64,000 bases of DNA from Membranipora membranacea (lineage: Eukaryota > Bryozoa > Gymnolaemata > Cheilostomatida > Membraniporidae), in the NCBI GenBank assembly GCA_914767715.1, contig OU612074.1:19020062-19084061 (forward strand). Reading direction: 5' to 3'. Below are positions 993 through 63,770 of this stretch, in pieces (the first letter of the stretch is position 1; every line of letters starts with the position of its first letter). A program made the position numbers and the translations under genes. A model generated the notes under the pieces. The model was not told where the DNA came from, searched no databases, and saw only the letters and a program-made list of their open reading frames with translations.

Positions 993-1037
993 GCTCATCA
1001 GTATCAGGTTACCAAAGTATCACATGTTTATTCTTAC

Positions 1038-2024
1038 CTAAGCTATCTCTTTGACAGAGTAGTGTGTTACCAGACCACTCCAATCCTGTGGGTGTCTTTG
1101 TACATGTGTACAGTCCATCGCCTGAGGTAACTTTGGTGTTACACTGGTAATGAATCTGTGAGCCCTCCTTGTCACTGTAAGAAGTGGCATTCAGTTTAGC
1201 ATTATCGATTATTGGCGGTTCTCCACACCTCTCTACAGACACTACGAAAGAGTCACTTGATGTGTTACAAACAATTACATACCAGCGTTATTTGTAAAGA
1301 GTACACAGAATGTGTTACAGACCTAGAACAACTAGCTCTGGAAAAACAAGGAACACTATAACATAGCTAATAATGTTTTCATAGGTAGATTCCTACAGAG
1401 AGAGATTATTCAACAGGTTAGGAATTGACTATGATATCTCATAAACAAAGACTGTAATTCAGTCCTGCCATAAATGTTTGTGTCATCACATTTGAATTAA
1501 CTAAGTATTTGGTCAGCTAAGGGAAAAAGAATGGAACAAACTGATATGACTTTTCGGCCGGTTGAGACAAGGTCATAAAGAGGTGGAGCTTAGACTAAAA
1601 AGTACACATCTTGCTCAAAACAGTTCTGTTCACTAGCCTGTGCGCAGATTGATTTTTAAAGTGATTGGGCAAGCAGGGGTTAATGTGAGGTCTGGGATGG
1701 AAGGAAAATCCAAAACTGAACATTCAAAAGTTTTTTGTGTCAGATTTTCAATAAATACAACGCTTTTTGAAGAATATACACCTAATCCCTTGAAGGATAA
1801 ACATTATAAACTGAGAGTTGTGTGGGAAAAACATTTTGTGACACGAAGAATCTGTAGGGCAATCAAGCATCATGATAAAGAACCTTATAAAAGGAAGAGC
1901 TATTGTCAACTATTGTCCTTTATGGGGTAGGGTAATGATGAATTATTACAGTTCAAAAGAGAAAAAAATTAGAGTTCAAATTTTGTATATTGAAATACCT
2001 ACTGTAGGAATTGCTATATTCAAA

Positions 2025-2062
<38 letters not shown>

Positions 2063-3799
2063 TAATAATAATAATAATAATAATGATAATATTAACACTA
2101 AATCTGGTACCGAACAGTACAGTACCAGAATTAGTGTTACCATCAGGTGCTGTGCAAAGTTTTCAAAGTGTAAAATGATAGTGAGCTGTGTAATATAAAG
2201 TTATTTAGCGCTTTATTATTATTTGGAGTATCAGTGGTCCTGGATTCTACTTTGAATTAGAAATAAGGCTATTTCAGAATATTTACAGCGTCTGAAATCT
2301 TGATTTTATCCATAACAAGAATAAAATAGTGTATACAAATGGTAGTTTGGAGTCGGTTTACTTACAAGGGAACAGCAGAACTTTTCCGTGCATCCCTATA
2401 TATAGTGAGTCATTGGTCATGAGTAGTGAGTATGGAAAGCTGAGTCTTATGCACCCCGAGCAAATATTAATTGTGCTGACATTGTCCTCGTTCATATCCA
2501 CTAGTCTTATTATATGCGACCACGTATCGGCCACAAGAAATGTTCCGTTTCTAATAAACTGGATACTGCGTGGGTACCAAAACCTCGATTCGGCCAGGCT
2601 GCCATCAATTACACCGTTTATGCCAAAACTCTTTCCAGCTATCAGTGTGACTGCTTTATTGAAGTAATTGATTCTGAAGATGGCATCGTAATTAATTACA
2701 TAGATGTCACCATTTTCATGCTGTGTTATGAATGTGATATATGAAAGTTTATTTGAAGAAGCGAAATATCTAACAACACCATTCTTTATCGAGGCTGATT
2801 TCACGACTCCGCGCCTATGAGTGAATAAAACCTGCTCTTGGTCATGATTGTCCCTAAACACACAAGACATAGCGGTAATGCTTGGTCTGCTTGCTTCGTG
2901 TTGCTCAAATAGCTCCTCAAATTCGGGCGGATAGTAAGGAATCTCTTCTCTGCATTCCCCGCTAAATACGGAAGTTGAGCCATTTCTCCTGTGAATCATC
3001 CTCATGCATTCCTTGTCATCTGATGTCTCAGCTGCTATTATGCGATCAAGTGAGATCTGGGCGAATCCTGTTAACCCATAAAAGAGAGCATCCTCACCAA
3101 CACCCTCTCTATAGCCCCAGTTTGAGCTATTTCCTGCTATGACTGTTGTAGTCACTCCATCGCTAGTTTTGAGTGCACTATAATCAGTGTAGATGATGTT
3201 CCCAGGCCGATAATTGTCTAGCTCAATATGGTAAACCCAGGTGTTGTCGGTTGAGGTGACAAATGTTTGCGACTTTGAGTCTTCTAGTCTAAAATCAAGT
3301 AAAATAAGGATATTCACACCATTTAAAAAAATCAAATAGGACTCATTAGAACATTATGTTTGTAAATTTCTATACATGTAATTATATATGGAAGTCTTAT
3401 ACTCTAACGGTTAAACAGTGATTTATCATTCAGGATTTGTATGTATTCATGAATATTACTGAATTGATGAAGCACCTCAGTTGGAGTTGAAAACGACTTG
3501 CTATAGTTGTGGGAATTTGGTAAACTATATAACGATAATGCTGAGCACACATTATGAACTTAGTTAATCTTTAACTACACCTTACCTTTTCACCAGTTGC
3601 TGTGTTTTTTGATCCATGCATGTCACTGTGAGCAGCCTCAGCCAAGTCACTAACTGGTAACAAGAAAACAGCACTTCATAATAACATCAATATTAATATC
3701 ATCACTCTTACAATGATGTAGTAACAAATGATAATAAAATAAGGTGTAAGCAAGACAGAGACAGGTTAAAAATCTTACCAACACAAATCCAATGGCCAT
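1038..3799 (-). CDS. Secreted/membrane NHL-repeat and sushi (CCP) domain protein, 3' end outside window
   Basis: Model (minus): 3799-3779, 3653-3586, 3288-2366, 1241-1038; the phases join without a break. Exon 1 (Met-Ala-Ile-Gly-Phe-Val-Leu) plus exon 2 make a clear signal peptide (MAIGFVLLVTWLRLLTVTC). The large exon (~307 aa) holds NHL beta-propeller units; the best is the stretch with AGKSFG...GVIDGSLAESRFWYP followed by FLVADTWSHIIRLV. The next exon is one sushi module (67 aa) with four Cys, a QC and a LxWSG...LLC ending. It ends in phase 1 on a good donor. By comparison with the relative at 9329-14030, a TM/cytoplasmic exon should follow, but I see none down to base 1, so the gene probably continues past the window. 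NHL propellers and sushi modules are extracellular binding domains. The ligand is unknown. Confidence 0.75.
2026..2095. repeat. (AAT)n microsatellite
   Basis: AAT triplet run with two GAT interruptions, in the intron between the NHL and sushi exons of the minus-strand gene. The poly-Asn reading frame on the plus strand is an artefact. Confidence 0.9.
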
Positions 3800-17719: not shown

Positions 17720-20700
17720 ATGAATTTTTTACTACCAACCCTGTGGATGGCAATGGTAAGCATACTATCTAGCTTCTGCTAATTTTCTACTTTGGCTCAC
17801 GTTTAAAAAAATTGCACACATTTACTCGGAGACCATAGATAGGATACACTTTGTCTCATACCTCTCAGATTCAGTGTTTAACTTTATTAGTACCATTCTC
17901 CTAAATAAAAAAAAAGAAACAAACGATGACATTGTATAATAACAGAGGATTAATTTATTTTGGAGAGGCAAGTCGCCGTAAAAACAGAAGAATTTTATAG
18001 CATGCCTATGATATCATTTACTCGCAGAATTGACATACTGAATAGTATGCAGTCTGATACCCAAGACTCTTGCCCCTCCCCTGGCAATATGTAGACTCTT
18101 GAGCTTTAAAGCTAGACTAGGATTAGCATATTTTGATATTGTCACATCCATACAACATCACCTGTATATATGACAGGTACTAGGAGTATTCTCAGAGGAT
18201 GGCTGTATATCACCAAAGTTTTCAGCAGTACCAGACCACACTGGATGTAAACAGAAATCTTCACACGCCTCATATGGTAAGTGATTTCATAATCAATGTA
18301 GTATATAAACTACAAGACAGACCACCAACCAATTTAACTACTTGATTGAGATTGTTGGCCTCTTAGGTTTAATTTTTCTTTGATATCAGGAAGTAATACA
18401 CTCGAATCCTACTGTTTAATGTCAATTGATCTTTGTTGCATCCATATATCTCACCATGTAGCAGCATTTGGAGTGCCATATACATTGGACATTATACTGT
18501 ATTGAGAAGTTAATTATGATTACTTGGCTATATTATTAAAGAGCCAAATTTTATCACTAATATGGTAACACAATCTTTGACCTCAATGGAAAACTCCTCA
18601 ACTTTTACAGAAGGCATGGATGACGAATCCCAAAGACAAATTGTTGATAAACACAACCATTTCAGAAGCACACTTAACGCGAGTAATATGCAGAAAATGG
18701 TGAGTGAACTTATAAAAGCTGTCGACAATAGTTGATAGTGAGCTCAATCGGTTTAATCATGATTTTAGTTTGGTGCAGTTAAAACTTATCACTATGATTT
18801 GTATGAAAATTAAAATACCAATACAACTTTATTATATTATATTATATTATATTTATTATATTCCTAACTCCTCTTGCAGGCCACAATGGGGCTTGCTCTC
18901 TATTGTATACATACTCTGTGACCCTCAACTTTCTCTTCATGTTCAGAGTAAACATATTTTGTCGCTCCTCTGTTTTAAGACTCGCGTTGGAGCCCCTGGC
19001 TATAGAATAATCAAAATCCTCTCTTACTCTTTTGAATCTGAACTAAAGAGAACTAAAAGAAAGATTCTATCCAGAAGTATAATTTTTCTGAATTTCACTA
19101 ACAGATGTGGGATGAAGAGCTTGCTCAGTTAGCCCAGAGGTGGAGTGATAATTGTGTTTTCCAGCATGATTCTGGAGCAAAAAGAGCAGTACCAGGAAAG
19201 TACCGTGTTGGTAAGAAATCACCACTCGATGTATAACTCGATATATAACTCGATGTATAACTCGATATATAACTCGGTGTATAATTTGTTGTATAACTTG
19301 ATGGTTAACTTGATGGTTAACTTGATGTATAACTCGATGTATAACTTGAAACATTACTGTCATAATTTTTCAATAATTGGCTGGGATTATGAAACTACTA
19401 ATCCTTCTTGTGAGAAGATAACAATTAGATGACACTGTTGACACCAGCTCCACCTTAGCCTGAGCCCCCCCTAGACTTTTTTCCACCGTCCTGTGAGGGC
19501 AACAACCTCGGGCCACCAACTGATATTTTAATTCCTCAGTGTGATTTACCAAGCAGCTAATTTGTTACACTGATCGTTTGTTGGTAATCAATCTTCCAAT
19601 GTCTAGGTTGACTGGATAGAAAAATTGTTTTGAATCACTACAACTTGAATGAGTAACAGCAAGAGACAAGTTGAATACAACCCTAATGTAGTCATCAAGT
19701 ATGCATGACAAATTAAATATGAGGCAGTGATTTAAACATTCAACTGTTCTTCATTATTGCAATACTATTGCAGGACAAAATATAGCTGCAGGATACTCAA
19801 ACTGGACACTAGTTATGGAGGCGTGGTGGAAGGAGATAGAGGATTTCCACTATAATCAGCAGGGAAGGATGGAGTTTTACAAGGTCGGACACTTCACCCA
19901 GATGGCCTGGGCCGACACTGCAAGGTTAGGATGCGCTTGGACTACATGTAGTAACACAGATCTACTCTACTATGGAGGGAAATTCTATGTCTGCAATTAC
20001 GCCCCTGCGTGAGTATAATAATTTTCTCTCTTCTAGCTCATGTGCTCAAACTTACTGGTTTGGGATTTGATTTATAATGATGACTACCAGCAATCCGGGG
20101 GAGTTTGATCAGATTAATTTCTATACACTTTTGTGAGCAAGCGTGCCAGCAACCAAACTGTACGCATCAAGTATTTCGGAGGATATTATTTTGTAAATGA
20201 TTGCGCAAGAAAAGCTCTGGAATAATCTAATGGGGGGGGGGGGGCGCATTTACAGTTTACAAAAGTAGAAATTAGATTAACATGATGATTATGCTTGGAT
20301 GTGATTTTATTGGGTATTGGAGCTGTATAAATGTCAGCAAGAACATTTTGACCAAACTGTAGAGAGCTCAAGTGAGGCACTTATTTGATTTGACTGGAAT
20401 CTTTCATTTTTCAATGTTATTCATGTTCTACAGTGGTAACCTGGACTGGTGGAAGCCATATAACATGACCAATGAGGGCGGAGTCTCTGGTAAATGTGCT
20501 TCCTGTCCAGATAGCTGTGACGATAACGGCCTGTGTGGTGAGTATAAGGCTAAAAATGTATACATTGTTTGTATATGCAGTCTGCAAATTCATGGCAGGT
20601 GATGGCATGTGTTGTCAATTGTGCATTCAATGATGTAGCATATGAAGAGAGGCGTTTGCATCATTTGAATCCGTATGATATGATATGATGCCAGCAAACC

Positions 20701-22432
20701 CTACAGCATCAACACAATATTGATATCGGTCATTAAACACTGATTGCAAAATTGCAACAACTGTACTGTATTTAATACACTACACTATCAGTGTTTTTTG
20801 AAGGAATACAAAGTGCATAGATCGTTTGAACTTTCTCCCATTAAATTAGAATAAACCCAATAAATTCATCCGCCAAATAAAAGAGTATCATAATAAAACT
20901 GCGTGATCCTAACTGTGTATTTTTTATTTTTGAACAGATTGCGCAGGCAAAGTCTGTGAGAATGGAGGAGTATTAGATGTTAATACCTGCGAGTGTACAT
21001 GTAGTAAGCTATACTACACAGCAGATACATGTTCATGTGAGTATAATATATCCCTCAGTAAGAACGAAAAGTGTAAAATTTGTGTTAAAGATGGATAATT
21101 ATTACAAAGTTATCCCCTCATGTATAGAGAGGGCATAACTCCATAAGCAATACAATTACCGTAATACCTCACCTATAAGGCGCGTGCCTTTTAGGTGAAG
21201 GTGCCTATAAGAAAGGAGCATATAGGCGCGGGTTTCATTTGAAGCATTTTTATATTTGACTTGGACCAAAACCTCGCCTTACAAGCTGGATGAATAGAGC
21301 CTAAGTAGGTTGAATAGGCTGGAAGCTATATAGGCTGAATAGCTATATAGGCTGAATAGGTACGAGAGGCTGAATAGCTATATAGGCTGAATAGGTACGA
21401 GAGGCTGAATAGCTCAGTGCCTTGTAAACATGATGTTGCGAGTTGAATCCCATCGAGGTCAGTTCACCTTTCAAAGGGGTGCCTTATAGCTGTGGGGTGC
21501 CTTATAACCAAAGCATGTCTATCTTTTCTGAAGGAGGTGGCCGGTGCCTCATAAGTGAGGTACATTATGCTTTCCAAAATATCAAATTACTGGTTCTAGT
21601 CAATGGATTACTCATAATTATCACCACTGTCATGTAAAATGTTGTTATTTAGATACATCAAAACAGTGAAGATTTGACTTCAGTAAATTTAACTCTTTCC
21701 TAATACCGTCATTTTTTAAACTTTTAATATGGTTCATGTTTACAATCTGTTAGTCGATGAAAGCTATTATGATATTATCCGGTTTTTTTAGTGGACTGTG
21801 ACACTGCAACAGACTCTCAGTTCTGTGATATGTTCTGGACTAAGCCTGATTGTGACAGATACACAAATGTCCCTTCAGAATGTCCCCACATGTGTGGATC
21901 GTGTCCACTTGCTGACACACCAACAAGCATTAACCAATCAGGGACAAAAGCTTCAGTCCTAGTGACTGAGTCGGCAACTTCTGCCACGGACACATCTCTT
22001 CAGACATCTATAACCACTGATGCCGTTCTAAAAAGCACCACAACCCAAACACCAGCATCGACAACAAAACTTCATACAACTCAAAGTTCTCAACAATCAA
22101 CAGAATCATTTAGTAATTTTTCAACTACAGGAAAGTCAACTCCATCATCTACATCGATGCCTGAAGGATCAAATCTGACTAGCAACAGCCCTCACCATAT
22201 GTCAGAAAATTTCACTGAGTCTCAGTCAAATAATATGCAAACCGATAAACTCACATATGCAGTAGATACAATAGGTGAGGAGCCAGAAGGAGTTGAAATA
22301 TCTGAGGAAGGTGATAAGACAGTTATCAAATTCCCCAGTGATATCTTTGGTAGGGATGCTGTTGCTTTGCCACAGGGAGAAGGCAAATCTAGGCTATACT
22401 CAGCACTGGTGCTCTTACTCAGACTACCATGA
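17720..22432 (+). CDS. Secreted CAP-domain protein with EGF-like, ShKT-like and mucin-like regions, probably GPI-anchored
   Basis: Exons 17720-17755, 18177-18276, 18542-18699, 19105-19210, 19774-20008, 20434-20537, 20938-21036, 21792-22432 total 1479 nt (492 aa), with all phases matching. Signal peptide MNFLLPTLWMAMVLGVFS. A short two-Cys segment and a Ser/Thr linker precede the CAP domain (roughly 85-230), seen from HNHFR (conserved His), WDEELAQLAQRW, NIAAGYSNW, EAWWKEI and the signature-like VGHFTQMAW and YVCNYAPA. Two Cys-rich EGF-like units follow (CPDSCDDNGLC..., CENGGVLD...CECTC). Then comes a ShKT-like CD...DSQFC...CPHMCGSCP block, a ~100-aa Ser/Thr-rich stretch with many N-glycosylation sites, and a short hydrophobic C-terminus that looks like a GPI signal. 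CAP proteins are extracellular; no specific ligand can be read. AATAAA occurs at 22593. Confidence 0.88.
18835..18862. repeat. TTATA microsatellite
   Basis: Five-base TTATA repeats in CAP-gene intron 3. Confidence 0.8.
19227..19345. repeat. 12-bp minisatellite (ATAACTCGATGT type)
   Basis: About nine to ten copies of a 12-bp unit (GTATAACTCGAT and variants such as GTTAACTTGATG) begin ~15 bp after the exon-4 donor of the CAP gene. Tyr/Asn/Ser and Val/Ile/His repeat frames on either strand are artefacts. Confidence 0.85.
21165..21570. repeat. Repeat cluster with tRNA-like SINE remnant in CAP-gene intron 7
   Basis: Contains several copies of TATAGGCTGAATAG (21290-21410) and a partial tRNA-like head with GGCTGAATAGCTCAGTG and GAGTTGAATCCCATC. 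The flanks contain ACCT.ATAAG.CGCGTGCCTTTTAGGTGA and GCCTCATAAGTGAGGTA motifs that recur around 33.0-33.2 kb. Confidence 0.6.
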
Positions 22433-23446
22433 CCTATCTAAAAATGTTAGAATTCATGAATTCGTACATTTTAATTTTTTAAATCAATGAATCTTTTTCT
22501 GTAACGTTGGCTTATCTTTCCAGAATTAATTTTGCATCTTAAAACTTTGTGGTTTTTATTGCGCTGAGGCTTAGTTTTGGTAGTTGGCTTCAAATAAAGC
22601 AAAGATACCCCCTAACTATGAATTCAAATATGATACTTGACACACACACAAATGCAATTCGTCCATGTTATTCTGGAAGGTTCTGAATACTGCAAGCAAT
22701 AAAGACATTTGAAATGTCTACAAAGGCATTTCATGAACCCATAAGTTGCATTTGAAGGTTTGATTCCATAAAATAAGTCAGTTTTTCATATGGACAAAGA
22801 CTCTTACAGTTGAATGGGCCGTTTTTTTTTTTCATTCACACGGCTGACTTCTCAGTAAGTATTCATGTCGTATTCTCTACATACCCAACACGTACACATC
22901 ATATCCTGACCAAGTACATTTCACAAACCCTCCTCGTAATTACCACGCAATAGTAGTTGGTTGGAATGAAATGGCTTCACTGTATTGAAATAATAATACT
23001 AAAATACAGCTGTGAAAACACAAGGTTACGAGTTCATAACAACTATTTTTTTAGAATTATCTCCCTCTTTATTTGGGAGTGTGTTGTACTGAGTGCATAA
23101 TTATCAAATCTCGGTATTATAATATAAGGTTTTATTGTTATCGAAACATAGCAATAGGCTACAATTAGATTATGTGATGAGTAGCGTCAATTGCTTTAAA
23201 TACATCTGTCAATCATTTATATGTGGCGTGATCGTGATCGGGCAGTCTGCTGTTTGAAAAAACAGCCTTTTGATTATGTAAATCCTGCTTCGCTACAGAC
23301 TTAAATTGACAGGTTGATTAGCATGTCAGATGACAATAAGAACGCATGCTATTAACATAAATTCAGACAATGATTGTTATTAAAATAGTAGCCTACTAAT
23401 AGTAGAAAGTAGATACTAGTTTCGGAACAACAGGGACTCAATCACC

Positions 23447-25193
23447 ATGAGCCTAGGTAAGACAAGCCGAATTCTTCTGATCCAGACCGGAGGTAAGTTA
23501 ATAATCAATCAAATTCAGGTATTGTCAACTTCAGTTTCTAAGTACCTGTCACCTGACCTGGGGTTAAGGTCGTTGTCAATCAGTATGCAGAGAACTATCA
23601 ACACAAATAGACGGGAGGATCGAACTCAATACACAGTTAAAAAATCTGCTGTTAGCCTCTACCTCTACCAGCTTTAGACCTAAGTTAGGTAAACGCTCAC
23701 ATTGATGTTGGAGAATGATTGCAAAGATTATGGGCTTTATAGGCATCTGACTCAATTTTGGGCTATGTTTTAGGTACAATTGATAAGATCTATCCTAACA
23801 AGCCTGGGGCATATGGGTTTGTGATTGACCAATCAGCTGCTCACCTACTATTACCTGAGCCAATCAGATCACAAGTTGAGTTAGTGAGTGTCTGCAGGAA
23901 AGACAGCCAAGAGATAGATGATACTGACAGGTAGGGTGGTTATAACTTCTTCCTGTTGCAGTTTCGAAATTAACTATCCATAGAGCCTTTCATTTCAATG
24001 ATTCCATGAGAAGTCAACACTCTGTTGCCTAAACCAAGTTAGTATCTGCCTCTTCCTTACACTGCTGAACCAGTGGTTGAACAAAGATGTGAGACTACAT
24101 CAGCATGCTAAGGTTTGAAGCCTCTAAGCTCGCGTAGTATGTTGGGTTAATATTTTAGTCAGCCAGCCAGTAAGCTAGGAAACAAAGTTATTTGTTAGAA
24201 TCACACATGGGAGGGAAGACTGCATGGATCTACAGAGCACTAGCTCAGACTACAGATCCTTATGTCTAGGTGTGATCTGACCTACCGATATCAGACATGG
24301 CACTGTGATCAAACAAGGGTTGTAAATGTGACCATCTGATCTGTGTGATTAACTTTGTGGTTTCAATACACATCTTTTTTATACAGGGAAAAGTTGGTTG
24401 ATGCTATTAGATCATCTCATATCAGTCTAATTCTTATCACACACGGAACTGATACTATTATAGAGACAGCCAAATATCTTCAATCACAGCTTGATGGTTA
24501 CTCAATAGACAAATGTGTTCTCTTAACAGGTGAGCTGTTTCTAGTTGAGTTAATGGAGGTCCCATCTACACATCAAAATTTTCCTACTGATCATGAGGAA
24601 CCTGTGCGCAGGGGCGTATTGTTAAAAAGTTTACGATAGAGAACAAAATAGATAAATGTGAGAAGTGCGAAAAAGATTTGGGTTCACAACTAACAGGCTG
24701 ATGTTTTCCAAATAAATTTATGTGAACTTTGTCAAGAACTAACCAAAGTTCCTATCATACCTGGTTTACCAACTCAGATGGAGTTTAAATGCCATTTAAA
24801 GCTCTCAAATGCTACTCTACAGAACAATAAGCACATTTCTCTTATAATCTTTATATTCATCTTTTATTATTTCGGATAAAGACCGTTCCCCGTAATCAGG
24901 TTGGAAATAAATCATCCAGCACACCATATAACAGTTTAATAATTCTATGATTTTTTGCACTATGATATTTATTGAGTCTGTCTGTTGAAGGTGCTACCCA
25001 GCCTTGGAGTATGAAGAAAACTGATGCCGAGATGAATGTTGGGACTTCTCTGGGCTTTCTTCTAGCATCAGAAGCAGGATCATCTGAGATGACTGGTGTC
25101 TATGTTTGTATGAACGGATGCGTTATCCCTGCTGACAGAGTATATCGGGATAAACTCTCCGGCTGTTTCCTCAGAACTCAAGAACAAAGATAA
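23447..25193 (+). CDS. Short L-asparaginase-like (N-terminal domain) protein
   Basis: Exons 23447-23492, 23774-23930, 24387-24529, 24991-25193 total 549 nt (182 aa), with all phases matching. The start is ILLIQTGGTIDK (residues 9-20), with the nucleophile-type Thr in GGTI at 17. A RKDSQEIDDTDR stretch follows at ~57-68, then THGTDT (86-91), the second asparaginase signature with its Thr-Asp pair, then LLTGATQPWSMKKTDAEMN and a YVCMNGCVIPAD stretch. Full type I/II asparaginases are ~330 aa with a C-terminal domain. This protein has only the N-terminal catalytic half, like the short stand-alone family known in bacteria. It has introns, so it is a real animal locus and not a bacterial contaminant. 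Whether it hydrolyses asparagine is unknown. No signal peptide; probably cytosolic. AATAAA lies ~10 bp past the stop. Confidence 0.88.
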
Positions 25194-33841: not shown

Positions 33842-33847
33842 TTTATT
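33842..33847 (-). terminator. Candidate poly(A) signal of the propeptide gene
   Basis: AATAAA on the minus strand, ~70 bp past the TAA of the tandem-exon propeptide gene. Confidence 0.4.
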
Positions 33848-33917: not shown

Positions 33918-36299
33918 TTATGGGGTCATTTGTTTCAATCTCTTGAGCGATCTCTTTTGACCCCACCATGAGCCAACACTACCCAAGATATCTAAAAGAA
34001 GACAACAAAAGTCCAATTTTAAATTTGACTTCGAAACCGCAAAACGGTCTCTTCAAAACAACAGTTGTCATGAGAAAAGTAATTTGGCTAAAATCAAATA
34101 AGGGAGGCAACATTCAAAAATTGATTGAAATGTTTGATATGGTGTTTTTTAAGTCTAAACTTAGACATGGGATATTGGTCTCCCGCAACAACAAAACCAC
34201 AATGCATTCATAAGTCACCTAATTCAGACCAAATAAAATAAGGAAGTCAACTTTCAAGCTTTCATTGAACATTTTTGATATAGTGTCTTTAAAGCTAAAT
34301 GGAAAAGTGTTAATACCTTCTGGGCTCTCTGTTGGTTCTAACATCGCTCATGATATCTAAAATAAAGAATAAATTAATAAAAAGAAAAAAGAAAAAAGAA
34401 GGGAGTCAATTTATCTATTTGAACTAAGATATTGGCATTTGTCTATTTTACAAATATCGTTGCAAATTAAATTTATAAGAAAAGATCCTATATAAAATAG
34501 TGACGATACCTTCTGAGCTCTCTGTTGGTTCTACTTCTCTTTTGTCGAAGCGGTACCAGCTGAGAATTTCGTTCATGATATCTAAAATAAAGAATAAATT
34601 AATAAAAAGAAAAAAAGAAAAAAGAATGGAGTCAATTTATCAATTTGAACTAAGATATTGGCATTTGTCTATTTTACAAATATCTTTGCAAAATAAAATT
34701 ATAAGAAAGGATCCTATATAAAATAGTGACGATACCTTGTGGGCTCTCTGTTGGTTCTACTTCTCTTTTGTCGAACCAGCTGCTAACATCGCTCATGATA
34801 TCTAAAATAAAGAATAAATTAATAAAAAGAAAAAAAGAAAAAAGAATGGAGTCAATTTATCAATTTGAACTAAGATATTGGCATTTGTCTATTTTACAAA
34901 TATCTTTGCAAAATAAATTTATAAGAAAAGATCCTATATAGAATAGTGACGATACCTTCTGAGCTCTCTGTTGGTTCTACTTCTCTTTTGTCGAAGCGGT
35001 ACCAGCTGAGAATTTCGTTCATGATATCTAAAATAAAGAATAAATTAATAAAAAGAAAAAAAGAAAAAAGAATGGAGTCAATTTATCAATTTGAACTAAG
35101 ATATTGGCATTGGTCTATTTTACAAATATCTTTGCAAAATAAAATTATAAGAAAGGATCCTATATAAAATAGTGACGATACCTTGTGGGCTCTCTGTTGG
35201 TTCTACTTCTCTTTTGTCGAACCAGCTGCTAACATCGCTCATGATATCTAAAATAAAGAATAAATTAATAAAAAGAAAAAAAGAAAAAAGAATGGAGTCA
35301 ATTTATCAATTTGAACTAAGATATTGGCATTTGTCTATTTTACAAATATCTTTGCAAAATAAATTTATAAGAAAAGATCCTATATAGAATAGTGACGATA
35401 CCTTCTGAGCTCTCTGTTGGTTCTACTTCTCTTTTGTCGAACCAGCGGCGAATATCGCTCATGATATCTAAAATAAAGAATAAATTAATAAAAAGAAAAA
35501 AGAATGGAGTCAATTTATCAATTTGAACTAAGATATTGGCATTTGTCTATTTTACAAATATCTTTGCAAAATAAATTTATAAGAAAAGATCCTATATAAA
35601 ATAGTGACGATACCTTGTGAGCTCTCTGTTGGTTCTACTTCTCTTTTGTCGAACCAGCTGCTAACATCGCTCATGATATCTAAAATAAAGAACAAAGTAA
35701 TAAAAAAAAAATAAAATGTAGTCAATTTATGGATACGAAAATAGTTGGTTGTCTGAGTTGGTGTCTCAAGAACATTGTTGCCAATTAATTTACAAGAAAT
35801 AATCCAGATAGAAAAGTGATAATACCTAGTGAACTTTCTGCTTGGCCCTCAAAATATGGAATTTTTTGTCACCAGATTCAGAAATGGAAGTGACATATTC
35901 AATGATAATTGTGGTGGCAGCTTCCATGAGTGTCATGTAAACCTTATTGCTGCTCAAGTTAACCCGGTCATATATGCACATTAAAGAAATATAAAACTAA
36001 AATATTGTAAGCAAAGGGCTTAAGACCAATTTTATTAGTCTGAAATCAAGGTAATTGTTAAATCTAAATTGTCAAAATTGTTTAAATAATGAGATCTTTC
36101 AGAATTCAAATATTGTTCTGCTTATAAACGAGTTATGAGGCAAACCTTCGGAAGATTCCATTGTGGGTGCTGCTGGTTCAAACACATTTTTTCCTTGTCC
36201 CGCCTGAGATACCTTTACAACATTCTGCTGCTCTGTAGCCAGGTTCCTACAGTTCACCACTGCGATGCACAGGCATGCAGCCAAACTCAACGTCCACAT
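33918..36299 (-). CDS. Multi-copy secreted propeptide (prohormone-like) encoded by tandemly duplicated exons
   Basis: Minus-strand exons: 36299-36146 (signal peptide MWTLSLAACLCIAVVNC plus ~34 aa), 35679-35614, 35467-35402, 35247-35182, 35027-34956, 34801-34736, 34581-34510 and terminal 33991-33918; 636 nt, 211 aa. Each internal exon is 66 or 72 nt, phase 1-1, with a TTTTAG acceptor and GTATCG donor. They encode one module: B-type DIMSDVSSWFDKREVEPTES or A-type DIMNEILSWYRFDKREVEPT(ESSE). Every module carries Lys-Arg after ...WFD or ...WYRFD. Cleavage at KR would release ~20-22-residue acidic peptides. The terminal exon is homologous (DILGSVGSWWGQKRS...) and ends in TAA. KR is the usual prohormone-convertase site, but there is no Gly-Lys-Arg amidation site. 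A degenerate copy at 34356-34317 is best skipped. I recognise no known peptide family. Confidence 0.75.
34300..35700. repeat. Tandem ~220/226-bp array carrying the module exons
   Basis: Units begin at about 34497 (226 bp), 34723 (220), 34943 (226), 35169 (220), 35389 (~211) and 35600, with a diverged one at ~34300. The 226/220 pair at 34497-34942 is almost identical to the pair at 34943-35388, so the newest event duplicated a dimer of 446 bp. Each unit is exon plus intron. Open frames of 71-73 codons on the plus strand repeat for the same reason and are not genes. Confidence 0.9.
34317..34356 (-). pseudogene. Broken eighth module exon (26-nt deletion)
   Basis: Has the same acceptor, the same ATATCATGAGCGATGTTAG start and the same CCAGAAG end as the B-type exons, but 26 nt covering the Trp-Phe-Asp-Lys-Arg codons are gone, leaving 40 nt. 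The donor is GTATTAAC. If spliced in, the terminal exon would be read out of frame and stop within a few codons. Confidence 0.75.
35817..35940 (-). other. Diverged unit-like block between propeptide exons 1 and 2
   Basis: The minus strand here resembles the exon-to-donor part of the modules: TGGTGACAAAAAATTCC... then CCAAGCAGAAAGTTCACTAGGTATTATC against CCAACAGAGAGCTCAGAAGGTATCGTC. One reading frame is open for ~31 codons to a TAG at the donor position. It may be an ancient dead module or an alternative terminal exon; I cannot tell which. Confidence 0.35.
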
Positions 36300-36669
36300 C
36301 AATCTGCAACATCAATGACGTCGTTAACAGCAACAGTTACACTGACAAAACAACAACATGATCGGAACAATTACCTTAGCTTATTTGTTAAAGAGGTACT
36401 TTGGTTCAGATCCAGAGTCGATTATAGAGGCGTCCTTGTCATCATATTGAGGTTAACGTGTGGAAAGTAATACTGTAGCCTTCAAAGAATGTTATTTGAC
36501 TCGCTTTCTCCCCTTCTACCCACATATTATGTTCAAAATTCTCCCCAATTCTCTCCCATTCACATCATCCAACAAGAGCGATCATTGTGGAAAATTCTAT
36601 TGAGCATAGCATGTCTTATCAATTTCATTTCATTTTCTTTCAAAAATCAAATAAAGTTTTCAAAAATTC

Positions 36670-38594: not shown

Positions 38595-40985
38595 TGTCAG
38601 TACCAAAAATGGGCACTTGAGATATGTAGTTATATTCAGCCAGCCGCAGAAGTCAGAGGGTACAGATAGAGATGGAAACAAATGCACCCAGTAACCTCCA
38701 TGGTATTTTGTAGTCACAAGCATACACAACGAGCAGAGAGACGCAGAAGTAATCCATCAAAGATGTAGCGAAGATAACCGCAGCATGCTAATCCGGTCAG
38801 AAAATAGGAATTCCAGTGACGCAGTAATTTGGTTTTCCAACACGTCATAGTACCAAGTACCAAGTAATCTCCAGGGTGACACAGAAGTAATTAACCAGGA
38901 AGTAACAACAACAAAGTCAGCCCAAAAATAGAACAACAAATTCCAGAGAGCAGACTGAGGAACAGCAGCAATATACCACGTGATGTGACCACAGAACGGT
39001 TTCATATAACAAAGCCACAAGAGACACTAATCCTAGTACCAAGTACCAATTAATCTTCAGGAATTTGGTTTTCCAAAACGTCATAGCACCAAGTACCAAG
39101 TAATCTTCAGGGTGACACGGAAGTAATTAATCTTGGAGTAACAACAACAAAGTCAGCCCAAAAATAGAACAATAGATTCCAGAAGGTAGACTGAGGAACA
39201 GCAGTCATATACCACGTGACGTGACCACAGAACGGTTTCATATAACAAAGCCACAAGAGACACTAATCCGCTGACAGCTAATCAAACGACAACAAGCAGA
39301 GTCAGCACAAAAATCGGCACCTATATAAAGGCCGAAATTTTGAACAGTAAATTAGTACAGTTTAATTCTTTGAGCAGCACAGTCAACTTTTTACATAGCT
39401 AGTAAAAGACATTATATTTTGATTTAATAAATACTAGTTTTAAATCAAAGATCTTTGTTGGAACGCTAAAACTAAAGTGGAGTCTAAGGATCAATATATA
39501 CTGTGAGTATCATTTGAATTACATTATCATTTTTTTTATAAGTATCAAGACAATAAACAATAACTTTAGTGAATATACTGTTGTAATTGATTTCTATGAA
39601 AATATAGTAATTGGCAAAGTAATTAGGGACAGTTCGTCAGGTACTCAGACGTTAGGTCATATTCACTAAGAGTTTATAAGGCAATTTTGCAATCAACTAA
39701 AGTAAGTCGTTGTTAATTGTTACTATAACAACACTCTGAAACAGGATTCAAAATTAACTTTAGGAGGTTTAATAATTGTGACCCACCATAAACGCAGGTA
39801 TTTCGCGTAGGTGCTCATATCAAAGTCGGAAATCATTGTGACCCACCATAAAACGCATGTATTTCGTGTAGGTGCTCATATCAAAGTCGGAAATCATTGT
39901 GACCCACCATCAAACGCATGTAATTCGTGTAGGTGCTCATATCAAAGTCGGAAATCATTGTGACCCACAGTTAAACGCAGGTAATTCGCGTCTGTGATCA
40001 TATCAAGTCGGAAATCATTTAGAAGTATCATTGGGAACTATTGTTAAGGCAGAACAGAATTAATTAGTATTCATATTTGCTTGGGGGTTAAATGGATTAA
40101 GTTTCGGAATAATAGTTTAAGATTAGATTCTTGTGTTTTAAAGAAGTAGGACGCTACCGATTTAAGATAAGATACCTCTAATCTGTGAAACATTAATTCA
40201 ACATTGAATATAGAAATTGAACATCAATTTTAGAGTGACCACAGACTGATACCTCTTTCCTTCACTAGAAATTGGGTTGGAGTCTTTAGCTAATTTAACT
40301 TGGCTAAGAGCCCTGTGATACTGATACACCGCCTTGATTACCTGATTGGGCTTCCAGGCACTATACAGAGATCAAGTAGGTGCTCATAATTAAAATCAGT
40401 CACCTAAGTTGAATAACAAAAATATCAAACGTACCTGAACACATTCATAAATAGTGATTGTGTCATATTAACATCTAAGGATAATATTGACTTTGTGGTG
40501 TAAGAGCATTGTCTCGAAACTCATCAAGAGTTTTACTGTTAGAACAAGACAGGGGTCTTAGCAGGTTAGCGGCAGGAACCTTTCTTAAACAACTTGAAGG
40601 CAACTTCTAGTGAAGCTAAGAAGAGGCCAGGCTCAATAACAACCCCTAAGTAAATTGCTTTGTGGAGTAGTGGGAACCAGCTGTTCGTCACTAGAAATTA
40701 ATAAGTTAAATACCTCGTACTCACCAGAGTGCTAGCATTACCAATTGGAACCACGTTTTAATAGATTTGAGCGATCTTGTTAGAACTCCAAATTAGAACT
40801 ACAAATAAATTACACAACAATAAAGTGACATTTTGAAGTGTCCGGAGTGCAAGATTTAAAACCATAACTACAAACATAGTTAGAACCAAATTTATAAGTA
40901 GGACGGTTATAGAACAACTATACATACTAATAATACACGGAATATACTTTAGTATAGGATAGGACGACAATATCCGTTCCTCACA
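38595..40985. mobile_element. Putative solo LTR, long copy
   Basis: Starts TGTCAGTACC and ends CCTCACA, like the copy at 10456-11834. It contains a TATATAAAG box (39322-39330) in the region missing from that copy, an internal duplication (38790-39060 against 39060-39290) and a 59-bp tandem array. Flanking CTTC and ATTC do not match well, so the target duplication has decayed. No gag/pol is visible nearby. An LTR with a central promoter fits, but a large non-autonomous DNA element is not excluded. Confidence 0.5.
39777..40020. repeat. Four ~60-bp tandem repeats inside the LTR-like element
   Basis: Four copies of a unit starting TGTGACCCACCATAAACGCA and ending CAAAGTCGGAAATCAT, with the last copy more diverged. 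Confidence 0.9.
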
Positions 40986-46503: not shown

Positions 46504-49500
46504 ATGACCAGGAGCTTACGCCTGGCAGGTGGTATTAAAAAGGGGAGTCTGATGCGCCGATCTGCACCCAGTCAGAAAAGTAACTCTTACAGCCTGAACT
46601 TCTCCTCCGACCCATCGACAGGCCAGGATGATCCCCACGAGAAGACTCTCATTCATAAAAAGACAACAAACCCGACAGAGAGAAGGCGAAGGCTTCCTTC
46701 TTACAATCGAAGATCCGCTAAGGACAACATCGGGAGACATCATAATGCGGAAACTAATCACGGACAGACAAACAACCATGGGCACATAACTCCCTCTGGT
46801 AAAGGGATAGAGAACCGAGCTGGACCAACAGTATTAACCGTCGTCGCAGATGATTCTCCTAAAGATACCAAACACGAAGATGAAACTAATCATGATGAGG
46901 TGGTCCATGATGGGCTGGAGCAGGCTCGTAGAAAACTGTAAGTTCTGTTACAAAAATGGTATTGTAATACGATTTCAACGTTTTGATCGTGGACCCTTTC
47001 TTCTGTGGCAATGTTTTAATATTCTCCTATTGTCGTCATCTGTATTCGTATTTGGACCCACATTGCTGTTAAACTATTCACCTTACGAACTATAGGATGG
47101 GAAATGGACCTTATTTCACCTTATACCTTCGCTCAATGAATTAAGGAAATAAAGTTTAAACCTTTTCGTAATTACGGTATTATATCTTGCATGAATGCCA
47201 TGTTTAATTGAGAATAACCCCTAATACTGCGACATCTAAATTATCAAAATTTGTGTACCTGATCTGATTTCCGGGTAAAGTACAACATGGGTTCCACTAG
47301 AGGTAATCAGTAGGCTAACTTTTAGTAGTAACTCAAGGTAATACTGAGACTTATTATAAAATTGATACACCTAAAACAATGTTTGTAATACAGGCTAGAT
47401 CCAGATCACTCAGCAGTGTGCAGGTAGGTCCGATCTCGATGTCATAGATTAGATGTTGTATCATAGATTAGATGTTGTATCATAGTTTAGATGTTGTATC
47501 ATAGATTAGATGTTGTATCATAGATTAGATGTTGTATCATAGATTAGATGTTGTATTATAGATTAGATGTTGTATCATAGACTAGATGTTGTATCATAGA
47601 TTAGATGTTGTATCATAGTTTAGATGTTGTATCATAGATTAGATGTTGTATCATAGATTAGATGTTGTATCATAGACTAGATGTTGTATCATAGATTAGA
47701 TGTTGTATCATAGTTTAGATGTTGTATCATAGATTAGATGTTGTATCATAGATTAGATGTTGTATCATAGATTAGATGTTGTATCATAGTTTAGATGTTG
47801 TATCATAGATTAGATGTTGTATCATAGATTAGATGTTGTATCATAGATTAGATGTTGTATCATAGACTAGATGTTGTATCATAGATTAGATGTTGTATCA
47901 TAGTTTAGATGTTGTATCATAGATTAGATGTTGTATCATAGATTAGATGTTGTATCATAGACTAGATGTTGTATCATAGATTAGATGTTGTATCATAGTT
48001 TAGATGTTGTATCATAGATTAGATGTTGTATCATAGTTTAGATGTTGTATCATAGATTAGATGTTGTATCATAGATTAGATGTTGTATCATAGACTAGAT
48101 GTTGTATCATAGATTAGATGTTGTATCATAGTTTAGATGTTGTATCATAGATTAGATGTTGTATCATAGATTAGATGTTGTATCATAGATTAGATGTTGT
48201 ATCATAGACTAGATGTTGTATCATAGATTAGATGTTGTATCATAGTTTAGATGTTGTATCATAGATTAGATGTTGTATCAAAGATTAGATGTTGTATCAT
48301 AGATTAAATGCAGTATCGTGTATTAAGTTATGCTAGACCAGAAACAGCAGTCCAATGTATTTTGAGGAATTTGACTGGTTTTGTTTATTGATGTCATTTT
48401 GGTTCTGAGCAACAGTTTAATAACTGGAGTGATCTCACAGTATTGGCAAAATTATTTGTTTCAGTTTTCCAGCAAATATAGCTCACAACAATTTGTATGG
48501 GGCAGTCTCTCCATTGAAATAATGTGTCATGGGTATACATAGATAAATTTTATATTGTTTGTATGGAAAGAACCCAACCAACATATCAATGCCTAGCCCG
48601 AGTGTGCATGCGTAATAATAATTATAAAATTGAGCATCAGATAAAAAACGTCCATCTCTGACATCATATCTGGGCTTGCAAAATCGCAGTGTGTAAGTAT
48701 AATTGCAAATCCAATTTGATTAGTACGTCACAATATTTGGTAATGTTTTGTATAAAACTACCTGATGCAAACTTTACACACACCTGCGTATATCCATAAT
48801 CATAATAAACTTGCAAGTATCTATTTCCGTCTAATTACGTTATATAACACTCAACGACACAAGTATTGATTGGCCGATGGAAAGTTTACTTTTCACTGTA
48901 GAATCTATTTGATTTCCCTGATTGAAATTGATCATCCCCTGGCCATATAATAGCAGATCATTGCGGCAGCACTATTTGCTGCCAATAAAATAAAGCTATA
49001 ATTAACTGAACATGTTTATAATATGAAATATATAACGGCACTGTGATGTCTATCATTAGTCGCCTATAGCCAGGAACGTTAAATTGGTCATAATGGAGTT
49101 AGAATTCACAGGATTATTGCTGCCAGCAAGGTAAACGCTGTGACATAACGCTATCCGCTCATTATTGATGGACACTGGTGCCTGGCACGATAAATTACTT
49201 ACAACGACTAATTTTAGACTGCGCTGGACTTACTCCAAATAGAATACTATTTATATTTGGAACTTGATATTTTCAACAAACTCCAAACTTCAAGCAGTCA
49301 CCTTCAAACAACAGAGCTAACTGCATCTTTGGAAGTTTCCCATACGAATCGACAATACTTCTCACTTTATATCTAATATCTAATTCGGGCATGCAACTGA
49401 TTCTGAAAGCAAGTCTATCAATGCGCCTAAACACCGAAATATTCTCAAGAAAAAAGTTTTAAAGCGCAACCATGTGGTATCAACAATCACGGCGATTAAG

Positions 49501-61460: not shown

Positions 61461-63770
61461 TTAGTTGTGTGGTTGAGGTGGGGGGTAGTGATGCATAGCC
61501 CGCATAACGTTGTCTCTTTGTCCGTTCATCGATGAGCTATAACAGGGAAAAGAATGAATTATGAAGCAAGTTTAAAAACAAATGTTACTCAAAGTTAACG
61601 TCAACAGATCTAAGCTAAACCTCCATGAGCTTTTACCAGATCAAAGTTATTAAATCTGACAAAGTTAGATAACTCAACTTATATCGCTGCAACAAGTAAA
61701 GAAACCAGCTGAAAATTTTAGCAGTAAAAGTCGACAAGAAAAGCACACAACTATATATTTATGAACATTAATGTTGTAGGTACAATGAAACGGCATACAC
61801 ATCAAAAATTGAATCGCAAACAATGTATCAACACTAGAGTCAGTAATGTTTTATGACAATGTCAAACTAAACAAAGAGATACTAAGAGAAATTAAAAGAA
61901 ACAAGGTTGGGACAATGTTTGCAATCAGACTTCGAGCCAGAAAGTATACTCATAATGGCCACAACATGAGGTAATTGTTAGCCTATGTGTTGGCTCTGAT
62001 ATGATTGGCTGTTGGGTGGGAAAAAGAGCCAATGCCAGGTCACAGAGAGCACCTATGGAGATATAATGAAATTGAAAATGAATCATTTAGCACTTAATAC
62101 AATATATATATAGCTACTTTCAGCAGCAAAGTACAATCTGACCTGGCATTGGCTCTTTCCCCCCACCAGCTAATCAGAGCCAACACAGTGGCTAGGTAAA
62201 TGTACAGTGTACTCTATGGTCAGAGTCTGTGGTCAGATCAGAGCAAACACGATTTTAGAGATTCAGGCCGGTGCAGGCAACACCATCTCCATAATCACAA
62301 CATAGATACAATGATGATAACAGTCACGTCCCACTACAGTCTCCACCTACTACAGTCGTTACCTTTAGAGCTCTTAGATGATTTGTTACCTCCCGCGGCA
62401 GCACCAGAGCTAAGCGCGTCAGTCACTGATAAAGTAGTAGAGGTTTTGTGCTGGTGACAGCTGAAGGCTATAGAAGGCTGATGTTGTGACTGATTAAGAC
62501 TAGTAGAAGCGACAGAAGCAGCAGCTGCTGCGGCGGCAGCACTGCTGGCTGAGTGACTGGACGATGAGTGGTGATTAAGTGATTCTAACATCATAAGCCA
62601 TGATAATCGAGCACAACATTTACAACTCACCAGGCGGCTTGTCATATCCATACGATATGGACAGCTGGCAGGATAGAGGAGAAGAGATAGTTATATAGTT
62701 ATATATATATGAGAGCATATGAGAGAATATGTGAGAATGTGAGTTTATGAGTATATCAGTTTGTGAGAGAGTATGTGAGAATATAGAGTTAAATAAGTAT
62801 GATAAAAGCTATATAATATGTATGATAGAAGCAGATGGGAATAGCAAAGAAATGTGATGTTTGTTGGTGTAAAAAGAGGGCGGAAAAGATTGAAAAGGCG
62901 AGCTTTATATGTATATTTATGACATTGGAACAGGTCAGGTGATTTGGATTAAGAAGGAACCATTTGGTGTTGTGAGGAACTGGGAGTGGAGCTAAGACTG
63001 TCTTGATTGTTAGAAAATCAGGCAAAACAGTTTGTGGATAATTCAAAGAAATGATCATGAGAATATTGTGAGAAGCTGGAAAACCTACACTGAGGTTTTT
63101 TCATTGAATAGTGACATTTTCATTCAGTGACAAGTGATACAGTCTACTGAGAAGAAGCCAGCGACACTTCTGGCACCTGTGACACTTCTGGCACCTGTGA
63201 CACTTCTGGCACCTGTGACACTTCTGGCACCTGTGACACTTCTGGCACCTGTGACATTTCTGACACCTGTGACACTTCTGACACCTATGACACTTCTGAC
63301 ACTTGTGACATTTCTGACACCTGTGACACTTCTGACACCTGTGACTCGATACCATCTAATAACTCCGAAGCGGACCACACACTTGTTCTATGCACATGAT
63401 GGTATTCAGTAATAAGAAAGGTAAATTACAAGGAGAATAGACTTACCTGCCATCTTGTGAGTGCTGTTTACCAGACTTTTTCCTGTTATAATGTGTCCTA
63501 CAAGAAATAAACCAGATATAGAAACATATACAAAACTAGCGACCTTGACATGAAGGTAACCCTGAAGGTTTTACGAAAATTATCGGCTGGTATTTGTGTT
63601 TGAATTCTTGACTCATAAAATCTGCAGCAATATTTGTGTAGTTCCTGTAGATCGAATTTTGACAGATTAAAGTCTACAGGCTCAGTAGAGACAACTTTAG
63701 TTACAAGGGATGTTTGAACAACACTCTCATTATGCAAAACCAAGGAGTTAAAGACAACAACTTGGCAAAA
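61461..63770 (-). CDS. Unrecognised protein with Ser/Ala-rich tail, 5' part outside window
   Basis: Minus-strand exons 63770-63544, 63482-63447, 62664-62347 and 61536-61461 join in phase (0, 2, 2, 2) and end at TAA 61461-61463, giving ~218 codons. The first exon has DFNLSKFDLQELHKYCCRFY, and the junction region has KKSGKQHSQDG. The third has CPYRMDMTSRLVSCKCCARL, then a Ser/His run, eight Ala in a row, and a Ser/Thr/Gln-rich stretch. The C-terminus ends RAMHHYPPPQPHN. I do not recognise the family. The Ala run and low-complexity tail suggest a disordered region. The third exon's donor (AG/GTGGAG) and the first exon's acceptor (GTTAG) are the weakest joints. Confidence 0.45.
61976..62198. mobile_element. 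Palindromic MITE, family Z, copy 4 (longest)
   Basis: Arms GTTAGCCTATGTGTTGGCTC...AAGAGCCAATGCCAGGTCA at 61976-62042 and the inverted TGACCTGGCATTGGCTCTTT...GAGCCAACACAGTGGCTAGG at 62137-62198. It lies in the last intron of the minus-strand gene. Confidence 0.8.
62690..62790. repeat. (TA)n and GAGA-type low-complexity tract
   Basis: TATATATATATGAGAGCATATGAGAGAATATGTGAGAA; short GAG(A)-TATG repeats in an intron of the minus-strand gene, ~25 bp from an exon acceptor. Confidence 0.75.
63160..63345. repeat. 18-bp minisatellite (GACACTTCTGGCACCTGT)
   Basis: About ten copies of an 18-bp unit. Because 18 is a multiple of three, every frame is open (Cys-Gln-Lys-Cys-His-Arg and Val-Thr-Gly repeats on minus, Leu-Ala-Pro-Val-Thr on plus). 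These are repeat artefacts within an intron of the minus-strand gene. Confidence 0.85.

Follow-up and report, generated by a model that had tools for sequence, protein, structure and literature searches.

The window analyzed here, a stretch of 64,000 nucleotides, contains on its minus strand what is probably an animal protein-coding gene for a secreted precursor that would be cut at Lys-Arg sites into several peptides. Six near-identical peptide copies each lie on an exon of their own, and a truncated copy, a relic, and an apparently much older copy at the end of the frame accompany them.

Structure of the predicted gene

On the minus strand, the coding region begins with a start codon at 36299 and ends, stop codon included, at 33918, the same limits as in a preliminary description of this DNA. 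The spliced frame is open over eight exons, giving 211 amino acids, and all joins are in phase 1. That description had listed a signal-peptide-like exon, six phase 1-1 exons of 66 or 72 nt, and a 211-aa product, all of which we confirm. Exons, phases, open frame, the likeness of the terminal exon to the others, and the damaged copies are observed directly in the DNA, and the features are as follows.

36146..36299, minus strand: exon 1, 154 nt; MWTLSLAACLCIAVVNC signal peptide (by eye) and N-terminal propeptide
36146, minus strand: end of exon 1 (..PTMESSE); donor AAG/GTTTGC, phase 1
35680..35845, minus strand: relic of a module unit in intron 1, with the linker part of the exon (35845-35826), donor, intron, and the E2 acceptor
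35614..35679, minus strand: exon E2, 66 nt, DIMSDVSSWFD-KR-EVEPTESSQ
35402..35467, minus strand: exon E3, 66 nt, DIMSDIRRWFD-KR-EVEPTESSE; also an internal Arg-Arg
35182..35247, minus strand: exon E4, 66 nt, DIMSDVSSWFD-KR-EVEPTESPQ
34956..35027, minus strand: exon E5, 72 nt, DIMNEILSWYRFD-KR-EVEPTESSE; 6 nt longer, in frame
34736..34801, minus strand: exon E6, 66 nt; same sequence as E4
34510..34581, minus strand: exon E7, 72 nt; same sequence as E5
34338..35711, minus strand: tandem array (TRF), 220-bp unit in 6.2 copies, or alternatively 446-bp double unit in 3.1 copies
34317..34356, minus strand: E8, truncated copy, 40 nt; 26 nt deleted, acceptor and GT donor retained
33918..33991, minus strand: terminal exon, coding part, DILGSVGSWWGQ-KR-SL-KR-LKQMTP-stop
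33842..33847, minus strand: AATAAA, beginning 71 nt past the final base of the stop codon

The six repeat exons share a module with the consensus D-I-M-[SN]-[DE]-[VI]-x-[SR]-W-..-F-D, Lys-Arg, EVEPTES[SP][QE], and their sole length difference is 6 nt, in frame. With lengths of 66 or 72 nt and phase 1-1 boundaries, E2 to E7 constitute, on the predicted splicing, an array of tandemly duplicated, frame-neutral peptide exons. This bears out both the prohormone-like layout that had been proposed, with one peptide copy per symmetric exon, and the suggestion that exons could be skipped without loss of frame, at least for E2 to E7. From E2 to E8, and again at the terminal exon, the acceptor is an AG behind a pyrimidine-rich tract (pyrimidine fraction, 0.76 to 0.88), and all donors in the gene are GT. 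The donors are weak, at 4.5 to 5.0 bits, compared, on the same matrix, with 7.6 to 10.0 bits for four of the five donors of a neighboring CAP gene model and 3.45 for the fifth. Introns in the array measure 146 to 154 nt, with differences in length of 8 and 1 nt among introns 2 to 7 (I2 to I7). Successive units are spaced by 212, 220, 220, 226, 220, and 225 bp, of which all except the last are not multiples of three, and unspliced read-through from each of the six repeat exons meets a stop after 42 to 44 aa. The frame is thus kept only by splicing. An AG stands just ahead of the start codon, at 36303 on the minus strand, behind a stretch with a pyrimidine fraction of only 0.53; because of its position, a 5' untranslated exon upstream of exon 1 is possible.

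The terminal exon as a probable diverged copy of the module

Because the introns were copied along with the exons, the six recent copies amount to little more than one observation. The independent evidence for coding is the likeness of the terminal exon and not the agreement among recent copies. To place this likeness on a scale, all 7,745 phase-1 starts that follow an AG in the window, on both strands, were translated, and their first ten residues were scored against the module, which itself served as the template. The six array copies scored 54 to 37, the terminal exon 32, E8 22, and the best unrelated place 21, making the terminal exon start the best of the 7,739 such starts outside the six array copies. 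Local protein alignments of each of the three module types to the terminal exon gave shuffle values of 0.0004, 0.009, and 0.002. Searches without the anchor were weak. Within the window, tblastn of module against terminal exon gave E values of 0.47 to 0.50 in either direction, and the terminal-exon query had a better match elsewhere (E value of 0.18 at 62171). Plain tblastn, which at these values is not separated from noise, was accordingly rejected as proof of homology, as was plain nucleotide identity, with 22 of 39 ungapped positions matching where 22 to 23 are reached elsewhere. By eye, the Lys-Arg of the terminal exon is one base out of DNA register with that of the modules, so the protein alignment overstates this part of the likeness.

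The intron upstream of the terminal exon tells a different story from the exon: between positions -60 and -21, it matches the module introns at 11 of 40 positions, about the level of chance. The terminal exon, then, appears homologous to the modules and probably represents the first half of one, copied long ago and since diverged; exon and frame were apparently preserved as the upstream intron decayed. The homology proposed in the preliminary description thereby stands on the AG-anchored, in-phase ranking and is weak in the unanchored search. The likeness of the end of exon 1 (PTMESSE) to the module end (PTESSE) has shuffle values of 0.05 to 0.21 and may be fortuitous.

Births and deaths in the exon array

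The array units recur every 212 to 226 bp with 92 to 96% matches, and introns I2 to I7 show 0 to 7 differences per pair in about 150 positions. E4 is the same as E6 and E5 the same as E7, consistent with the 446-bp double unit, as if a pair of exons had been duplicated once to yield E4+E5 and E6+E7.

E8 has the trinucleotide TAG at both ends of its missing 26 nt. Since E8 keeps its splice signals and shifts the frame, the 211-aa product requires that it be skipped; its donor, at 4.96 bits against 4.48 to 4.51 bits for the others on that matrix, scores no worse than they do. If E8 were included, the frameshift would yield a 204-aa protein that ends in ..DIMSDVRTNREPRRYLG at a stop codon within the last exon. 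All six array cores would remain intact, and the lost part would be the terminal peptide only. The earlier statement that the terminal exon closes the frame holds, then, solely with E8 skipped, and the 40-nt copy had not been listed.

The relic in intron 1 aligns to a module unit over linker, intron, and acceptor, with a score of 82 that none of 500 block shuffles reached. Read in donor register, it gives HF*IW*QKIPYFEGQAESSL, in which the linker is recognizable and open and two TGA stops flank a Trp at the former position of the core. Collectively, these features lead us to read the array as a birth-and-death series of exons, with a recent double unit, a fresh death in E8, and an older death in the intron-1 relic.

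Other repeats were seen in and near the gene. Intron 8 (33992-34316, minus strand) contains an older internal duplication of ~70 bp (score, 66; 0 of 500 shuffles), and tandem repeats lie nearby at 38822-39269 (236 bp in 1.9 copies) and 39771-40019 (61 bp in 4.1 copies), to which parts of the gene gave no tblastn match at E values up to 10. An inverted-repeat search returned 17 pairs, including one in which exon 1 (36169-36179) can pair at 10 of 11 bases with the cores of four modules. A role for base pairing in exon selection was rejected: the exon 1 pairing was equaled in 7 of 300 shuffles, a figure computed for E2, and is one test among many.

Variation in the peptide core

All eight variable exon columns among E2 to E7 are nonsynonymous, and KREVEPTES is invariant in all six repeat exons. 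Six of the eight columns fall within 12 nt, in the core rather than the linker. The comparison of E3 with E5 illustrates the pattern: the exons differ by four substitutions and the 6-nt length change, while their downstream introns show no difference in 154 positions and their upstream introns 3 in 146 plus 8 gap columns. A cluster scan gave P values of 0.004 (12 nt), 0.014 (15 nt), and 0.065 (20 nt), which rose to 0.23 to 0.67 when adjacent changes were merged into one event. The proportion of variable columns in the exon (8 of 66) compared with the intron (8 of 146) has a P value of 0.10, and the absence of synonymous changes among the eight is not significant (P value, 0.23). Testing the core against the intron gave a P value of 0.0005, for a core that was chosen after inspection of the data. 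Diversifying selection was rejected as a proven property on account of the exon-intron and synonymous P values and the loss of clustering on merging; that the peptide core changes faster than the introns is suggested, not established.

Predicted processing and products

Lys-Arg occurs at the same place in all six repeat exons, so that the single Lys-Arg per repeat exon noted earlier holds throughout; in addition, an extra Arg-Arg is present in E3, and the terminal exon contains Lys-Arg twice. A series of similar peptides with dibasic sites between them is the arrangement of a secreted multi-peptide precursor. The residue before Lys-Arg is Asp in E2 to E7 and Gln and Leu in the terminal exon, and Gly in none of the eight cases, which is why the amidated neuropeptide families (FMRFamide and the like) were rejected as candidates. 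Past the assumed signal peptide, the precursor has 194 residues, among them 28 Ser, 27 Glu, 17 Asp, and no Cys, with a charge of -20. The repeated predicted peptides are acidic, with charges of -4 to -7; the terminal peptide ILGSVGSWWGQKRSLKRLKQMTP is basic and Trp-rich, with a charge of +5 if uncut.

From the arrangement of sites and exons, we infer that the precursor is transcribed, spliced, secreted, and cleaved, and the following course can be proposed. An exon with a peptide core, one Lys-Arg, and an acidic linker would have been duplicated in tandem together with its intron. With phase 1 introns on either side and an exon length divisible by three, every added copy would extend the precursor by one peptide and leave the frame intact. 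The signal peptide would be removed, a proprotein convertase would cleave at Lys-Arg, and a carboxypeptidase would trim the basic residues. This would release a 45-residue N-terminal piece, six acidic, non-amidated 20- to 22-mers, and a short basic tail. The 20- to 22-mers would be of the forms EVEPTESSxDIMSD(V/I)xxWFD, EVEPTESPQDIMNEILSWYRFD, and EVEPTESSEDILGSVGSWWGQ. Predicted average masses, unmodified, are 2289.3 for EVEPTESSEDIMSDVSSWFD, 2698.9 for EVEPTESPQDIMNEILSWYRFD, 2440.6 for EVEPTESSQDIMSDIRRWFD, and 2292.4 for EVEPTESSEDILGSVGSWWGQ. The peptide dose would be set by the genomic copy number of the exon, and possibly also by exon skipping.

Searches for relatives

The 211-aa protein had no homologue at E values up to 10 among 4,135 candidates (~116 to 369 aa), nor had a 97-aa version among 3 candidates (~53 to 170 aa), both in collections that seem animal-poor. 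Pattern searches of viral and prokaryote contigs gave 3 and 25 matching loci, none of which was confirmed. Among solved structures no relative of the product was found (best E value, 0.58). Six predicted peptide strings had no match in the literature searched, Rfam and tRNA searches gave no match, and Pfam on the long frames around the gene gave nothing at 0.01. On the precursor itself, 11 Pfam families matched at E values up to 1 and were rejected as repeat artifacts, no single stretch passing in any. The best of these was PF10206 (ATP synthase subunit f, WRW), with an E value of 2.3e-06 and 28.3 bits for the whole protein against a cut-off of 26.5; it was discounted because the score sums weak matches on the repeats, none of which passes singly. 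Within the collections searched, which seem animal-poor, the peptide sequence is thus an orphan, in keeping with the earlier remark that the core matched nothing known.

Comparison with known genes

The defensin-like domains of nasonin-6 are cysteine-rich. In this peptide of Nasonia vitripennis, as the excerpted text describes it, each domain is one exon and the introns are in phase 1 (PMC2853521). The gene described here likewise has a single exon per repeat and phase 1 introns, but its peptides are linear, Cys-free, and bounded by Lys-Arg, whereas the nasonin-6 domains are described there as defensin-like and free of protease processing signals.

Pipid frog skin peptide genes offer a second parallel. 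According to excerpts of the papers concerned, the magainin and caerulein genes of Xenopus laevis make near-identical peptides from tandem-repeated peptide-encoding exons (PMC3731216), and hymenochirin transcripts of Hymenochirus encode a signal peptide and acidic spacer followed by two to six tandem repeats, attributed to exon duplication and perhaps alternative splicing (PMC3899252). The likeness, a secreted precursor with tandem peptide exons, is one of design and not of descent. The frog genes, as these excerpts describe them, are CCK-related and repeat exons 2 and 3 as a pair; here, in contrast, core, Lys-Arg, and linker share one exon, and no relative turned up in the general searches, whose collections seem animal-poor.

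Beetle periviscerokinin exons are reportedly duplicated between introns of equal phase and frame-neutral (PMC6585902), as are the exons here, with the difference that periviscerokinin is a known neuropeptide family and the present array repeats an orphan peptide in six recent copies. The passages on schistosome micro-exon genes (MEG) describe them as secreted, with small exons mostly in multiples of three (PMC10526429), a feature shared with this gene. Their exons are mostly of 15 bp and their introns of 100 to almost 5000 bp, in contrast to exons of 66 or 72 nt and introns of 146 to 154 nt here, and those passages make no mention of identical peptide copies bounded by Lys-Arg. A gene of the schistosome type was rejected, since it requires many symmetric exons mostly of 15 bp. 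In Aplysia luqin (L5-67), a skipped exon alters the C-terminus through a frame shift, according to one excerpt (PMC4208409), much as inclusion of E8 would do here; unlike this gene, luqin is the known precursor of an amidated decapeptide and is not described in that excerpt as an exon array.

The design of tandem peptide exons is thus already known from frogs and insects. The preliminary description had stressed how unusual one exon per copy is. It is right in that neuropeptide copies often share one exon, in which case, in the wording of one excerpt, they "cannot be specifically silenced" and are "equal at birth" (PMC2575521); it needs tempering in that duplicated peptide exons have been described in the sources above.

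Alternative explanations

The secreted, cleaved precursor is the reading we favor, and within it the role of the peptides can be stated with less assurance. Regular sites between near-identical copies fit an intercellular peptide of the dose type, which leads us to suggest tentatively, at something short of an even chance, a neuro-, endo-, or exocrine signal; this is somewhat likelier than defense. That the same precursor instead supplies a defense, venom, or skin-gland effector is a doubtful but serious possibility, prompted by the turnover of the array and by the best-documented genes of this design, which in the excerpts cited are defense genes (PMC3731216, PMC3899252, PMC2853521). The basic, Trp-rich terminal peptide would then be the active one and the acidic modules neutralizing spacers; or the modules themselves would be fast-changing effectors, with an anatomy that overlaps the favored explanation and a different role. 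The terminal peptide is indeed cationic, and the changes do lie in the core (six of eight columns within 12 nt; P value, 0.004, or 0.065 for 20 nt). However, the repeated peptides are acidic, the two Lys-Arg sites of the terminal exon would split the basic peptide, and the cluster disappears when adjacent changes are merged (P value, 0.23 to 0.67), with exon versus intron at 0.10.

The remaining explanations depart further from a cleaved precursor. An uncut, secreted acidic repeat protein, such as a disordered matrix or mucus component with incidental Lys-Arg pairs, would account for the Ser/Glu/Asp-rich composition and the net charge of -20; we consider it unlikely, as Lys-Arg holds its place in all six copies and falls close to the equivalent position in the terminal exon. 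The damage to E8 and to the intron-1 relic, together with the weak donors, could also indicate a gene in decay, formerly a functional exon array and since broken by the 26-nt deletion after an earlier dead copy. This is very unlikely given that six copies and the terminal exon are open and that, even with E8, a 204-aa protein would keep its six cores. Least probable is a 220-bp tandem repeat without coding function whose exon-like frame arose by chance. Exons and introns were duplicated together at >90% identity, so that agreement among copies is not itself evidence of constraint, and the likeness of the terminal exon is weak in the unanchored search; nevertheless, this diverged copy retains acceptor, phase, and frame beside a decayed upstream intron, and the spliced frame opens in a signal-peptide-like exon and closes at a stop codon with an AATAAA behind it.

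Neighboring features in the window

Several other features were recorded, as follows.

18562-22429, plus strand: CAP-domain gene (Pfam CAP, E value of 8.9e-12 for one exon)
23420-25190, plus strand: perhaps an asparaginase-like gene
1009-3353, minus strand: Sushi-like and NHL-like open reading frames (ORFs)
47442-48310: 19-bp minisatellite, 45.7 copies, 95% matches

The CAP gene model runs from the CAP domain through Cys-rich and ShKT-like parts to a Ser/Thr-rich tail, the last three assigned by eye. Its best match is a protein of the bivalve Solemya velum (44% identity over 63% of the query), one of 4 matches at 1e-5 from 902 candidates in collections that seem animal-poor. This match suggests an animal host, perhaps of the molluscs or a related phylum, and nothing in the analysis favored the sponge or other early animal raised in the preliminary description. 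In the asparaginase-like region, the ORF at 24349-24639 matches PF00710 (E value, 7.6e-06); the long frame through this ORF gave nothing at 0.001. The Sushi-like ORF (E value, 0.0007, just below the cut-off) and the NHL-like ORF (E value, 0.0056, below the cut-off) are perhaps parts of one secreted protein.

Implications for peptide copy number and splicing

With the design already in print, the value of the gene lies in its new sequence and in the history of its array, in which a recent 446-bp double unit, the fresh death of E8, and the older intron-1 relic can be told apart. It is quite unlikely, on our assessment, that the gene represents a new peptide family in which single copies are silenced singly by splicing and E8 is a working switch. 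If it does, skipping of E8 would give the basic, Trp-rich tail and inclusion a different C-terminus, RTNREPRRYLG, so that production of the tail peptide would depend on a single exon choice. Having a separate frame-neutral exon for every copy, the predicted gene would escape the limit that a shared exon places on silencing single neuropeptide copies and, if transcribed, would make it possible to ask which of the two, the number of genomic copies or splicing, sets copy dose.
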